Positions 3,983-10,942 of a stretch of 64,000 nt of DNA are shown here, piece after piece (within the stretch, counting starts at the first letter, position 1; the number at the start of each line of letters is the position of its first letter). The position numbers were made by a program, and so were the translations under genes. The DNA comes from Paenibacillus lemnae (lineage in GTDB: Bacteria > Bacillota > Bacilli > Paenibacillales > Paenibacillaceae). The notes below the pieces were generated by a model, which saw only the letters and a program-made list of their open reading frames with translations, was not told where the DNA came from and did no database searches. The stretch is from NCBI RefSeq assembly GCF_012933385.1, contig NZ_JABBPN010000021.1, positions 1-64,000 of the forward strand. Direction: 5' to 3'.

Positions 3983-4050
3983 CGTTACCCTCTTTTCAAA
4001 CAATGTGTGCCTTTAATAGTACCTGATCTGGAGGTGTATTTCAATCATAA

Positions 4051-6802: not shown

Positions 6803-6825
6803 TATAATGATACAATTTGTATCAT
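6803..6825 (+). promoter_or_regulatory. Promoter -10 and 19-bp operator of the lasso cassette
   Basis: TATAAT (6803-6808) overlaps an exact inverted repeat, ATGATACAATTTGTATCAT (6807-6825; 9-bp arms, 1-bp centre). No good -35 lies at the right distance. A repressor dimer bound here would cover the expected transcription start. The regulator is unknown and not encoded nearby in an obvious way. Confidence 0.6.
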
Positions 6826-6849: not shown

Positions 6850-8814
6850 ATGAGTGCGATTGCCGGGATTTGGACACGCCATCCCTCTCCACTTCTAAAT
6901 CAACATCTAGATACAATGATGCAGGTTCTGTCCCATTTTCCTGCTGACGATGCGGGGATATGGAGCAGCCCCGTAGTTGCACTAGGCTGTCATACAAGAT
7001 GGATCACACCGGAATCTATTCTTGAATGTCTCCCGTATCATCACCCGACGTTTCGAAACAGCATTACCGCGGACGCAATACTGGACAACCGGGAAGAGCT
7101 GTTTTCCCTCCTCCACATTGATTACTTCAAGAGGCGTCATATGACCGACAGTGAACTCATTCTGCGCGCATATGCAAAATGGGGGATCAATTGCCCCCGC
7201 TATCTGCTAGGTGACTTTAGTTTTGTAATTTGGGATGAGTACAACAAGCGTCTTTTTGGAGCACGAGACCTGCTTGGAAACCGCACACTGTACTTTGAAC
7301 ATCACTGTGATCAATTTGCTTTTTGTACAACGATGAGCCCTCTGCTCGCTATATCTGACCAGAAACCCTCGATCAACGAGTCCTGGCTGGCAGAGTTCTT
7401 GGCGATCCCTGTCATTCTCGATACGATCGATGTGAAGAGTACAGTTTATCAAGGAATTCACCAGCTTCCCCCTGCTCACTTCTTTACTGTGGAAGATGGT
7501 CGATTGAAGATCGACCAATACGACGGGTTGAAAGAGCCTGCCGAGAAGCTGCGCTTACGTTCCAACGGAGAGTATGAAGAGGCTTTTAGAGATGTATTTC
7601 AGACTGCTGTAGCCAGCAAACTCCGGACATTCCGTCAGGTGGGTGTTAAATTGAGTGGAGGTCTGGACTCCGGATCGATTGCAGCTTTCGCTTCAAAGTT
7701 CCTTCATCAGGAAGGTAAGAGATTACATACATTCAGCTATATACCACCTTCAGATTTTGCAGACTGGACAAACCGGTATATGGTTGCTGACGAAACACCC
7801 TATATTCAATCGATCGCCCGGCATGCAGGTAATACCCGAAATCATTTCCTTCGATTTCCTGAGCGGAATTCAATAACTGTCGTGGATGAATTGCTAGATT
7901 CTATTGAAGCGCCGTACAAATTTCTGGAGAATTCTTTCTGGCTCACGGGGATTGCGGAACAGGCACAAATGGAATCGATAGGGGTCATGTTAACGGGTGG
8001 CAGAGGAAATTACACGGTGTCATGGGGACCTGCCTGCGACTACTACGCCCAGCTGATGCGGAAGGTGCAGTGGATTAAGCTTTATCGTGAAATGAAACAA
8101 TACAGCCGGATTGAAGGCATCTCACGCTTTAAGCTGTTCCCCTTTGTCGGCTCTCACGCGTTCCCGCTTGCGGCACGATGGATGAACAAAAGTAGAGAAA
8201 AGGATTCCATGAGGCCGATGCTCATTCATCCTGAATTCGCCAAGCGGACAGAAGTCATGGAAAAGCTGCAGCCATATTATGGTCACGTTGATATGAACGG
8301 CATGCAAACCGATGATTTCTCCGAACGCCGTTTTCAATTTGAGCATCTGGCTACGTCGAACCATTATGGTACTTCTACCACCAAGCTGTCACTTCGTTAC
8401 GGCATTGCCGATCGAGATCCTACAAACGATCCTCGCGTCATTCGCTTCTGCCTGTCCCTGCCCTATGATCAGTTTGTGCAGCACGGCAGGGACCGTTCCA
8501 TCATTCGCCGTGCTGTATCAGGACTGCTTCCTGATGACGTCCGGATGAATCAGCGTGTACGGGGCGTTCAGGGAGCGGACTGGCTCTACCGGCTGCGGTC
8601 TTCCTGGGACACGTTAACAGATGAACTGCATCACATGTGCCTAGACCCGGTAGCCTCAGCATACTTGCATATCAATCAGGTGAAACAATCCTTGAATGTT
8701 GTCGGAGCTTCTCCCAAATCCGAGCTGGCGTTTGATCCTCATGCGAGACTGCTTATGCAGAGTTTGATTGTTTATCGGTTTTTGAAGCGCACGCATTCTC
8801 TGGAAAGGAGGTGA
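6850..8814 (+). CDS. Lasso peptide macrolactam synthetase (asparagine synthase-like, C protein)
   Basis: A 654-residue asparagine-synthetase homologue. It would adenylate an Asp or Glu side chain and close the isopeptide ring of a lasso peptide. The N-terminal glutaminase-like domain begins MSAIAGIW, lacking the Cys2 nucleophile of true asparagine synthetases, as in lasso cyclases. The synthetase domain carries the ATP pyrophosphatase loop SGGLDSGSIAA near residue 268. The ATG at 6850 is chosen for TAGGAG seven bases upstream. The stop is five bases before the precursor gene, whose ribosome site lies inside this gene's 3' end, so the two are tightly coupled. The precursor match makes a lasso role far more likely than asparagine synthesis. 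Confidence 0.88.
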   Translation: MSAIAGIWTRHPSPLLNQHLDTMMQVLSHFPADDAGIWSSPVVALGCHTRWITPESILECLPYHHPTFRNSITADAILDNREELFSLLHIDYFKRRHMTDSELILRAYAKWGINCPRYLLGDFSFVIWDEYNKRLFGARDLLGNRTLYFEHHCDQFAFCTTMSPLLAISDQKPSINESWLAEFLAIPVILDTIDVKSTVYQGIHQLPPAHFFTVEDGRLKIDQYDGLKEPAEKLRLRSNGEYEEAFRDVFQTAVASKLRTFRQVGVKLSGGLDSGSIAAFASKFLHQEGKRLHTFSYIPPSDFADWTNRYMVADETPYIQSIARHAGNTRNHFLRFPERNSITVVDELLDSIEAPYKFLENSFWLTGIAEQAQMESIGVMLTGGRGNYTVSWGPACDYYAQLMRKVQWIKLYREMKQYSRIEGISRFKLFPFVGSHAFPLAARWMNKSREKDSMRPMLIHPEFAKRTEVMEKLQPYYGHVDMNGMQTDDFSERRFQFEHLATSNHYGTSTTKLSLRYGIADRDPTNDPRVIRFCLSLPYDQFVQHGRDRSIIRRAVSGLLPDDVRMNQRVRGVQGADWLYRLRSSWDTLTDELHHMCLDPVASAYLHINQVKQSLNVVGASPKSELAFDPHARLLMQSLIVYRFLKRTHSLERR

Positions 8815-8819
8815 TACAT

Positions 8820-8966
8820 ATGTCAGCAGAACAAAAGAAAGAATGGCAGCAGCTGTCGTTTGAAGTACTCGACGTTCAAGAGACCATGGGCGGTCCGAAT
8901 GGCCGGGTGCCGGATTCCAACGGCAAGGGTGCCAATAACCGTCATGTTCCTCTTGATCCTTCTTAA
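8820..8966 (+). CDS. Paeninodin-family lasso peptide precursor
   Basis: A 48-residue precursor with an ideal ribosome site (AAGGAGGTGA). The leader contains EVLDVQETM, almost the same as the paeninodin leader EVLDVHQTM, with the hallmark Thr at position -2. The predicted core is 25 residues and starts GGPNGRVPD at residue 24. Gly1 and Asp9 would form the nine-member macrolactam ring, as Ala1 and Asp9 do in paeninodin. The tail ends in Ser, the residue that is phosphorylated in paeninodin, but no kinase gene is present here. The aromatic-x-x-Pro leader motif read by B1 proteins is WQQL here, so the Pro is lost. Maturation is inferred. Confidence 0.85.
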   Translation: MSAEQKKEWQQLSFEVLDVQETMGGPNGRVPDSNGKGANNRHVPLDPS

Positions 8967-8975
8967 TACCCCTGC

Positions 8976-9010
8976 GCCCTTATACATTCGGCAGTATAAG
9001 GGCTTCTTTA
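8976..9010 (+). terminator. Attenuator/terminator between lasso precursor and exporter
   Basis: GCCCTTATAC and GTATAAGGGC form a perfect 10-bp stem with an 8-base loop, followed by TTCTTT. It lies 9 bases past the precursor stop and 37 bases before the exporter start. Partial read-through would give more precursor than exporter. Confidence 0.85.
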
Positions 9011-9046: not shown

Positions 9047-10942
9047 ATGACCCATGTCATGGAGTATATTAAGAAGCTGTATACTTTTTCAGGAAGGAAA
9101 CTGATTCTGGGGATTGCGGGAATGATGCTGGTCAGCCTGCTGGAAGGAACGAGCATTTTGCTGTTAGCCCCGATGCTGAGCTTGACGGGACTGATCGGTC
9201 CAACATCGGACTCCCTGCCGTTCCTTGTAATTCTTACCGCTCCGATTATGTCCTGGAGCGATGAACAGAAGCTGACGCTCATGCTGGGTATATTTGTTTT
9301 CTTATTTGCCTTGCAAGGTGCAGTGCAGCGTCATCTGGTCAACATGAATGAGCAGATCGAACAAGGATTTATCCGGCATTTGAGACTGGACGTGTATGAA
9401 TCGATGATATACGCGAATTGGTCTTTCTTTTTGCGTAAACGGCGCTCAGACCTGGTTCATCTAATGACCAGCGAATTACCGCGCGTCAGCTATGGCATTT
9501 CTCTGCTGCTCGGACTATGCACTACTGTGGTGTTTACAGCCGTTCAAATCGGCTTTGCGCTGTATCTTTCCTTCGAACTGACAGCAGCGGTATTAGTCTG
9601 CGGAATAGCGCTGGCCTTGTATTCAAGACAATTCATTCGCAGATCAAGAAAGATCGGTGCACAGGCGACGGAGCTTTCCCAACAGTGTTATGCCGGCATA
9701 ACAGATCATTTGAACGGCATGAAAGACATAAAGGCCAATATGCTGGAAATACAGCATTTGAACTGGTTTCAGCAGCTATGTCATCGACTGGAGCATAATG
9801 TTGTCAGCTTTACCAAATTGCAAACGACCTCGCAATATTATTACAAGCTGGCTTCTGCTGTTCTGCTGGCCGTCTTTGCGTTCTTCTCATTTGTTGTTTT
9901 TCATGTTCAGCCGGAGCGGCTGATGATCATTGTGTTAATATTCTCACGGCTGTGGCCCAAATTTACAGGTCTGCAGACCAGTTGGGAGCACTTGGCTCAA
10001 TCGGCACCGGCCTTTGGACATTTGTCAGCAATGCAGAAAGAGATTCAGAATGCGCGCGAGCTTGAACTCCCTGACATGAACAGCGGTAACTTTGAACATA
10101 CCATACGTTTCGACGAAGCGATTGAATGTCGTCACGTCTGTTATCGATATCATCAAGAGCATCATGTGCATAAAGAGAATCAAGGGCATCAAGCTCATCA
10201 TGGGCATGAGCATCATGTGCACCTAGGGAATCATAAGCATCTAGGGCACCCTTCGCCTTATGCACTGAAGGACATCCATCTGCGTATCCCGGTTCATACC
10301 TTGACAGCCATTGTCGGCAAGTCGGGTGCCGGAAAGAGTACTTTGGTTGATCTGCTGATCGGCCTGATTAAACCAGATCAAGGGGAGCTACTTATTGACG
10401 GCAAACCCCTTACAAATGAAGTAGTGTATCAGCTTCGCCAAAAGGTCAGTTACGTCTCCCAGGATCCGTTTCTTTTTCACGGCACTCTGCTTGATAATTT
10501 GCTCGCAGCCGCTCCGAACGCCACCGACAAGCAAATATGGGATGCCTTGCATTTTTCCGCTGCTGAAGCATTTGTCCGCAAGCTGCCCGAAGGTTTAGAT
10601 ACGATCGTCGGTGACCGGGGCATCCGATTGTCAGGGGGTGAACGTCAGCGTATTGTACTGGCCCGCGCCATTCTTCGCCAGCCTGCCATCCTCATTCTCG
10701 ATGAAGCAACAAGTGCGCTGGACAGTGAGAATGAAGCCCTGATCCAGAATGCACTGATGCAATTAAGGGGCAAAATGACCATTATTGTGATCGCGCATCG
10801 TTTGTCGACAATCCGACATGCAGACCAGGTGTTTGTCCTTGACGGTGGCATGATCATTCAGCGAGGCGGGTATCAACAGCTTGCCAGTGAACGCGAAGGC
10901 CTCTTCGGCAAGCTGCTGCATGTACAGACCGGCACCAATTAA
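9047..10942 (+). CDS. ABC exporter, fused permease and ATPase (lasso D protein), with His-rich insertion
   Basis: A 631-residue half-transporter that probably exports the mature peptide and gives self-immunity. About six membrane helices span residues 10-305. The ATPase domain has Walker A GKSGAGKST near 424, signature LSGGERQR near 527, Walker B ILILDEATSALD near 548 and the H-loop IAHRLST near 582. Between the A-loop Tyr (CYRY) and the next strand lies an insertion at about residues 369-401 with 14 His in 33 residues, absent from usual exporters. The ATG follows GAGGCGACGAGG. It is the last gene of the cassette; no protease (B2) or recognition protein (B1) follows. Confidence 0.88.
   Translation: MTHVMEYIKKLYTFSGRKLILGIAGMMLVSLLEGTSILLLAPMLSLTGLIGPTSDSLPFLVILTAPIMSWSDEQKLTLMLGIFVFLFALQGAVQRHLVNMNEQIEQGFIRHLRLDVYESMIYANWSFFLRKRRSDLVHLMTSELPRVSYGISLLLGLCTTVVFTAVQIGFALYLSFELTAAVLVCGIALALYSRQFIRRSRKIGAQATELSQQCYAGITDHLNGMKDIKANMLEIQHLNWFQQLCHRLEHNVVSFTKLQTTSQYYYKLASAVLLAVFAFFSFVVFHVQPERLMIIVLIFSRLWPKFTGLQTSWEHLAQSAPAFGHLSAMQKEIQNARELELPDMNSGNFEHTIRFDEAIECRHVCYRYHQEHHVHKENQGHQAHHGHEHHVHLGNHKHLGHPSPYALKDIHLRIPVHTLTAIVGKSGAGKSTLVDLLIGLIKPDQGELLIDGKPLTNEVVYQLRQKVSYVSQDPFLFHGTLLDNLLAAAPNATDKQIWDALHFSAAEAFVRKLPEGLDTIVGDRGIRLSGGERQRIVLARAILRQPAILILDEATSALDSENEALIQNALMQLRGKMTIIVIAHRLSTIRHADQVFVLDGGMIIQRGGYQQLASEREGLFGKLLHVQTGTN
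10150..10250 (+). repeat. Imperfect short tandem repeats encoding a His-rich loop
   Basis: Degenerate repeats of CATCA/GGGCAT type produce the His-rich insertion in the lasso exporter. The low-complexity DNA also opens spurious frames on the other strand. Confidence 0.6.

Follow-up and report, generated by a model that had tools for sequence, protein, structure and literature searches.

The lasso peptide module described here, from Paenibacillus lemnae, has a precursor of the paeninodin family, yet its gene cluster is without a defining part, namely B1 and B2. It lies in the window, by which we mean the whole stretch of DNA analysed (64,000 nucleotides of contig NZ_JABBPN010000021.1), and has the gene order C-A-D, i.e. 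lasso cyclase, precursor and ABC exporter; the window module has no B1, B2, kinase or nucleotidyltransferase gene. Our reading builds on this gene content, on the single B1-B2 pair that the genome has on another contig, C47, on the absence of dedicated B genes across a clade of related modules and on a palindrome that the module shares with the C47 locus. With a probability of about 0.7, judged from comparisons of sequence, the module would be a co-regulated satellite whose leader is processed in trans by the B1-B2 pair of C47.

The C-A-D module and its precursor

The features of the module are collected in Table 1. It starts 6.8 kb inside an 88-kb contig and has unrelated genes on either side; an MFS transporter gene and a gene for an HxlR-type regulator, one on each side and both on the minus strand, flank it. 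With the NCBIfam lasso cyclase model the window cyclase scores 370 bits, under the cut-off of 525, and the C47 cyclase is also under this cut-off. The hairpin between precursor and exporter is a putative attenuator: four terminator-like sites were found in the region where 4.2 are expected, hence the pattern alone is not significant, and hairpins of at least 8 bp occur in three of 17 loci without B genes. The exporter has an insertion of about 30 residues immediately before Walker A, with 16 His in the stretch compared against 0-3 in 55 other aligned exporters. Its DNA is full of CAT codons, as if it stemmed from repeat expansion. Since the insertion is present in only one of the 56 aligned exporters it is no clade feature, and a reading as metal-binding element was dropped.

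Table 1. Features of the module, with positions in the window.
Feature	Position	Strand	Basis
Perfect -10 hexamer TATAAT, adjoining the palindrome	6803..6808	+	read from sequence
Palindrome TGATACAATTTGTATCA, core GATAC-N5-GTATC at 6809-6823; putative operator	6808..6824		motif shared with congeners
Lasso cyclase C, GATase_7 and Asn_synthase, 654 aa, SGGLDS motif intact	6850..8814	+	Pfam
Shine-Dalgarno GGAGG of the precursor	8807..8811	+	read from sequence
Precursor ORF, 48 codons	ATG 8820, stop 8964-8966	+	read from sequence
Leader, 23 aa, W(-15)QQL(-12)SF(-10), Thr(-2)	8820..8888	+	sequence; numbering after PMC13381572
Core GGPNGRVPDSNGKGANNRHVPLDPS and stop; predicted Gly1-Asp9 ring	8889..8966	+	NF033524; subfamily comparison
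Perfect 10-bp hairpin, then TTCTTT; putative attenuator between precursor and exporter	8976..9003	+	terminator-like site scan
ABC exporter D, 631 aa, unusual His-rich insertion at ~10151-10255	9047..10942	+	Pfam

The preliminary description of this DNA had proposed a lasso precursor, and the ORF, which lies between cyclase C and exporter D, is indeed real: it matches NF033524, the NCBIfam paeninodin-family model, with 50.2 bits (cut-off 27, E 1.5e-13), well above chance. Lasso precursors have Thr at position -2 and an acidic ring residue at core position 7-9. The window precursor, with leader MSAEQKKEWQQLSFEVLDVQETM, has Thr at -2, Asp at core position 9 and WQQL in the leader, all as claimed, and the predicted Gly1-Asp9 ring is supported by the fact that GG-x5-PD is kept in all 33 precursors of its clade (see below), most of which continue with (K/R)NGKGxNN. 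Compared to the RRE motif [Y/W]xxPx[L/V/I/F/A], W-15 and F-10 are present and Leu takes the place of P-12. The same description had seen the YxxP motif altered to WQQL. The loss of Pro(-12) stands, but W instead of Y is usual among paeninodins in the available part of PMC13381572, so only Pro(-12) counts as lost. It had also called the core new, which does not hold: the core belongs to the subfamily of 33 GG-x5-PD precursors, found in named Paenibacillus and Cohnella strains, and is therefore not new. A literature search with the core letters GGPNG found no lasso-peptide paper as far as titles and the starts of abstracts tell. Searches of phages gave no match to the window precursor; among plasmids a single GG-type precursor, labelled a paeninodin-family peptide, matched in part.

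B1 and B2 in the genome, the clade and the family

In the genome (4.59 Mb, 51 contigs, 91.87% complete) a single B1 of PqqD type and a single B2 (Transglut_core3) score above cut-off; they lie at 148.6-149.4 kb of C47 and are also well above the cut-offs of the NCBIfam lasso B1 and B2 models. A second match to the B2 model, on C21, lies below the cut-off with 21.5 bits and in an 853-aa frame. There are two paeninodin-type precursors and, at E <= 1e-60 of the window cyclase, two cyclases; a third, weaker match to the cyclase model is located on C33. The B1 gene reported as missing is thus absent from the cluster, and the only PqqD-type B1 of the genome is that of C47.

The paeninodin cluster of C47 is itself in two pieces. 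The first, on the minus strand, consists of cyclase, precursor (leader WNAP, core AGPGATHPDAAQPDPDETVHYTS) and a kinase-like gene with weak HprK matches below the cut-offs; the second, about 22 kb away on the plus strand, consists of nucleotidyltransferase, B1, B2 and exporter and ends a run of polysaccharide genes. This split arrangement occurs in 18 of 100 genomes of the genus, including that of the window, with 14.7-24.6 kb from A to B2, which means that in these 18 genomes the B1-B2 pair is already well apart from its own cyclase and precursor. L013 and L055 were classed as split clusters rather than B-less since their B2 lies 17.9-22.2 kb from the precursor. As for the Ser-ending core without a kinase gene, none is found locally, as had been claimed, but the C47 cluster does have the kinase-like gene. 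A local kinase is also absent in six of 16 B-less clade members. A weak precursor-like ORF, IWMTPKLEVLDIEQTYA, was seen at 3309-3494 of L044 and 455-640 of L047, in G029 and G089, with identical leader parts.

The window cyclase shows at most 51% identity to others in its own genus and up to 57% to cyclases in other genera of the family. Forty loci were fetched around the best-scoring cyclases and annotated by BLAST and a precursor HMM, the precursor of L123 being located by hand; a contig scan gave no match with a single-protein query and gave matches with an alignment of eight cyclases. A tree of 77 cyclases from these 40 and 18 other loci (quick method, LG+G4, SH-aLRT only) places the window cyclase in a clade of 33 members with SH-aLRT 99, the named members of which are from Paenibacillus and Cohnella. 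It forms a long branch (0.56) paired with that of L129, which is also long, and since the tree program warns of this its position within the clade is unsure.

Seventeen of the 33 clade loci have two cyclases with one B1 and one B2, whereas the other 16, including the window, have one cyclase and neither B1 nor B2 in the fetched locus. A clade cyclase with a B1-B2 pair to itself was found in none of the 33 fetched loci, which mostly show flanks of 7.8-9.2 kb on each side (6.8 kb on one side for the window; for the B-less L132, one side reaches just 1.9 kb from the cyclase to the contig end). L117, outside the clade, is also B-less, bringing the B-less loci to 17 altogether. Whole genomes were searched for B1 and B2 in 19 cases, viz. 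the 16 other genomes with a B-less module (15 from the clade), G303, G130 and the window genome. B1 was found in 16/16 and B2 in 16/16 of those other genomes, on other contigs or at least 0.2 Mb from the module. The separation is not a contig effect throughout, because more than 0.7 Mb separates the module from B1-B2 in the one-contig genomes G319 and G322. In P. cellulosilyticus CECT 5696, 13,920 bases of the B1-B2 cluster (L188) are identical to replicon NZ_CP054613.1 of strain KACC 14175, which is circular and 2.7 Mb in size. Its sole cyclase match at E <= 1e-50 belongs to the B1-B2 cluster, hence the B-less module of this species (L161) is located elsewhere. Cohnella thailandensis DSM 25241 (L164, L190) also has its B-less module and its B1-B2 cluster on different contigs.

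The picture extends to the family. B2 was found in 262 of 394 family genomes and in 225 of 226 with a paeninodin-type cyclase, the exception being G130, which is 78% complete and has its B2 interrupted by a contig end (L141). Of the 44 family genomes in which two or more cyclases were counted, 28 have more cyclases than B2; the cyclase counts are lower bounds (at most three candidates scored per genome), and since the genomes are related the cases are not independent events. In an overlapping set of named organisms this precursor type occurs in 25 of 75 loci, 14 with one B2 and a second cyclase and 11 with neither; in all 27 loci that contain two or more cyclases there is a single B2. L211, L220 and L221 first looked B2-less, but a weaker search found their B2.

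Composite loci with two cyclase-precursor pairs and one B1-B2 pair are known both from Paenibacillus and Cohnella (L107-L116, L118-L120, L122, L143-L145) and from Bacillaceae and relatives (e.g. L181, L204). The window resembles them in this ratio, but their B1-B2 is adjacent while that of the window is on another contig. Two cyclase-precursor pairs with one B2 were seen in L181, L185, L192, L194, L201, L204, L205, L207, L208, L212, L215, L216 and L219, all from Bacillaceae and relatives; the second core in these 13 loci mostly reads NGPGNAxxDCFDV and has two Cys. Precursors of the GG subfamily with two core Cys (e.g. GGPNWCNPDANNDGHNNSVKCEAILDPS) were seen in L124, L126, L128, L137 and L163 and perhaps give a disulfide-bearing lasso peptide. 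L184 of Neobacillus novalis, which is not of this clade, has cyclase, precursor, kinase, nucleotidyltransferase and exporter and adjoins a second set with a distant RRE-like gene; the locus as fetched shows no B2.

It might be argued that the module is a decaying orphan, silent by now and deprived of B1, B2 and K, and that its frames are still intact only as recent remnants. Its precursor is the sole one of this kind among 100 congeneric genomes, its cyclase is on a long branch and a local kinase is absent, which would all fit. However, the cyclase matches 92 of the 93 columns that at least 75 of 76 relatives conserve, exporter and precursor are intact and the latter has a good ribosome-binding site. 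Furthermore, B-less modules with intact precursors are present in 16 other genomes from four genera (g2, g14, g15, g16). We regard decay as unlikely, though it deserves some weight.

Alternatively, some other peptidase that escaped recognition could remove the leader, or the core be freed otherwise, such that B1-B2 would be unneeded. In LPP, linear RiPPs whose RRE is related, the leader is cleaved by a signal-peptidase-like enzyme (PMC13381572). Going by the title of Zyubko et al. 2019, pseudomycoidin reportedly forms with neither leader nor leader peptidase, and the odds of processing by the C47 pair are put slightly lower on this account. Against this route, the module has retained a leader that carries W-15, F-10 and Thr(-2), there is no peptidase gene among C, A and D, and 17 of 17 genomes with a B-less module also encode B1 and B2, which makes this route improbable.

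An assembly artefact, with a further B1-B2 pair for the module hidden in the 8% of the genome that the assembly lacks, has in its favour that the assembly is an incomplete draft of many contigs. It is nevertheless a very improbable explanation, given that the module is well inside its contig with unrelated genes on both sides and that the same lack is seen in relatives' one- or two-contig genomes (G319, G322, G109).

Leader position -12 and recognition by B1

If the leader is to be processed by the C47 pair, its Leu(-12) is the residue that calls for attention. Paeninodin leaders are mostly WxxP, and W-15, P-12 and L-10 sit in pockets of B1 (PMC13381572). The preliminary description had read the loss of Pro as an adaptation to the loss of B1, which can hardly be correct: both features go together in the window and L129, but among the clade precursors six of 17 whose locus includes B1/B2 have Leu(-12), compared to just two of the 16 whose locus does not, i.e. 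the opposite direction. A comparison of leaders across genomes, which that description had itself named as a check that could refute the link, finds Pro-less leaders beside B1, with WTAL, WTSL, WSAL and WTTL as further examples from B1-bearing loci. L115 even has a single B1 next to one WQQP and two WTAL leaders.

PbaB1 (PDB 9x90) is a relative of the C47 B1, with E 1.6e-26. Taking the PbaB1 residues given in PMC13381572, the C47 protein keeps I44, I48 and F83 around leader position -12, and its pockets for -15 and -10 match those of PbaB1 except for V71I and E75V. Position 48 is Ile in C47 and Val in 12 of 12 B1s from Leu-leader loci and two of two from mixed loci, in sets that contain the same species twice. 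Covariation of this position with Leu(-12) was rejected, as Val48 is found beside Pro leaders too (L107-L110, L116 and L119). The change P-13A of LppA weakened RRE binding (PMC13381572), and by analogy this gives reason for caution as to whether the C47 B1 would bind a leader with Leu(-12).

Action of B1-B2 in trans is feasible since PadeB1 and PadeB2 cut their own precursor without the cyclase (PMC5067487). The same pair failed to cut a caulonodin precursor (PMC5067487), thus specificity exists and can bar action in trans.

A shared palindrome and the proposed route

The palindrome in front of the module ends 26 bp ahead of the cyclase ATG. The TATAAT that adjoins it lacks a convincing -35 hexamer at the normal distance, and no plus-strand promoter before cyclase C was predicted in a promoter scan. 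The 64-kb window has one copy of the exact motif; C47 has five between 120 and 140 kb and one between 140 and 158 kb. None was found in 400 kb of C33, in 200 kb from the rest of C47 or in 20 kb more of C13. The C47 sites lie ~235-270 bp upstream of the lasso cyclase and also before the Wzz gene that heads the polysaccharide run ending in nucleotidyltransferase-B1-B2-exporter. Directly before nucleotidyltransferase-B1-B2 there is no exact palindrome, the nearest upstream pair being ~16 kb off at the head of the polysaccharide genes; the run up to and including nucleotidyltransferase-B1-B2-exporter is probably one operon. In L013 (C47:120000-139999) sites near 4042/4077, 9102/9135 and 11941/11974 form pairs 33-35 bp apart, about three helical turns, a spacing that suggests cooperative binding.

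The association with capsule and lasso genes is not confined to this genome. In 17 split-cluster congeners 47 exact sites were counted in 325 kb of capsule/lasso regions, while 400 kb of background taken from these genomes had two; an exact site is present in 16 of 17 capsule/lasso regions against two of 20 background regions. The palindrome relaxed to 9/10 with any spacer occurs 20 times in 400 kb of C33 and three times in the window. It is unspecific alone, therefore 4/5 A/T in the spacer was required wherever 9/10 was allowed. In all 16 tabulated congeners a site of at least 9/10 with such an A/T-rich spacer precedes the cyclase by 42-87 bp; G096, the sole region without an exact site, was omitted from these because its fetched stretch stops before the cyclase start. 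Over all genera, 16 of 181 cyclase starts, a set that holds some species twice, have such a site within 400 bp, where the background expectation is 0.0028 per 400 bp. The B-less modules with a site include those of the window, L117, L123, L126, L127 and L149, and in P. cellulosilyticus a site is found at both the module (L161) and the B1-B2 cluster (L188). Twelve of 16 B-less clade members, including all eight of g2, have no palindrome within 400 bp of the cyclase. A literature search for the palindrome found nothing fitting.

We infer, for the satellite module, that the C47 pair acts on the window leader, that a product forms and that a regulator binds the palindrome. B1, as RiPP recognition element, and the peptidase B2 would bind the W-15/F-10 leader and cut after Thr(-2)-Met(-1), freeing the core; the module cyclase would join Gly1 to Asp9 around the tail and the module exporter would secrete the lasso product. 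The lasso product would have a mass of 2493.22 Da (2+ 1247.62, 3+ 832.08). The kinase-like protein of C47 may also phosphorylate the terminal Ser, which would give 2573.19 Da. Module and C47 capsule/lasso locus are probably under joint control of a regulator that would bind GATAC-N5-GTATC, so that module and B1-B2 would be present at the same time. Tentatively, and at nearly even odds, this could be generalised to a hub-and-satellite RiPP design, in which one B1-B2 pair at the end of a capsule run serves scattered modules, the palindrome regulator unites them in one regulon and lasso peptides are part of a cell-envelope programme.

The module can be compared with two known systems. With the paeninodin family (C-A-K-B1-B2-D, Firmicutes; PMC5067487) it shares the NF033524 precursor, the cyclase, the ABC exporter, the predicted ring at Asp of position 9 and the W-type leader, and a second cluster of this family is present in the same genome. 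It differs by the lack of B1, B2, kinase and nucleotidyltransferase, by Leu at -12 and by an Asn/Gly-rich, basic core where the paeninodin tail is acidic. LPP, the linear polyphosphorylated peptides (PMC13381572), are alike in that an RRE reads a leader with an aromatic-xxP-like motif and in that their Bacillota loci are capsule-linked, but they have no cyclase, a Y-type leader (YxxPxVLxHQxIxFETxxS) and a signal-peptidase-like leader peptidase. The window has a cyclase and a W-type leader, and only one PqqD-type RRE was found in the genome. Sharing of B1-B2 in trans was not found described in the available parts of PMC10352776, PMC7533575, PMC12670498, PMC9576775, PMC11705953 and PMC9266682, the subscription literature being mostly outside the scope of the search. 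'Incomplete' lasso clusters of rumen genomes became complete on manual curation (PMC7533575).

Given that relatives are alike, peptide clusters that seem broken may be complete. Cluster-finding rules that need B1-B2 beside C and A would label such modules incomplete, and refactoring such a module alone in a host would probably give no product. If B1-B2 do act in trans, a strain could receive cyclase-precursor modules that bring no peptidase along, and the shared palindrome would offer a handle on the timing of capsule-linked lasso peptide production.
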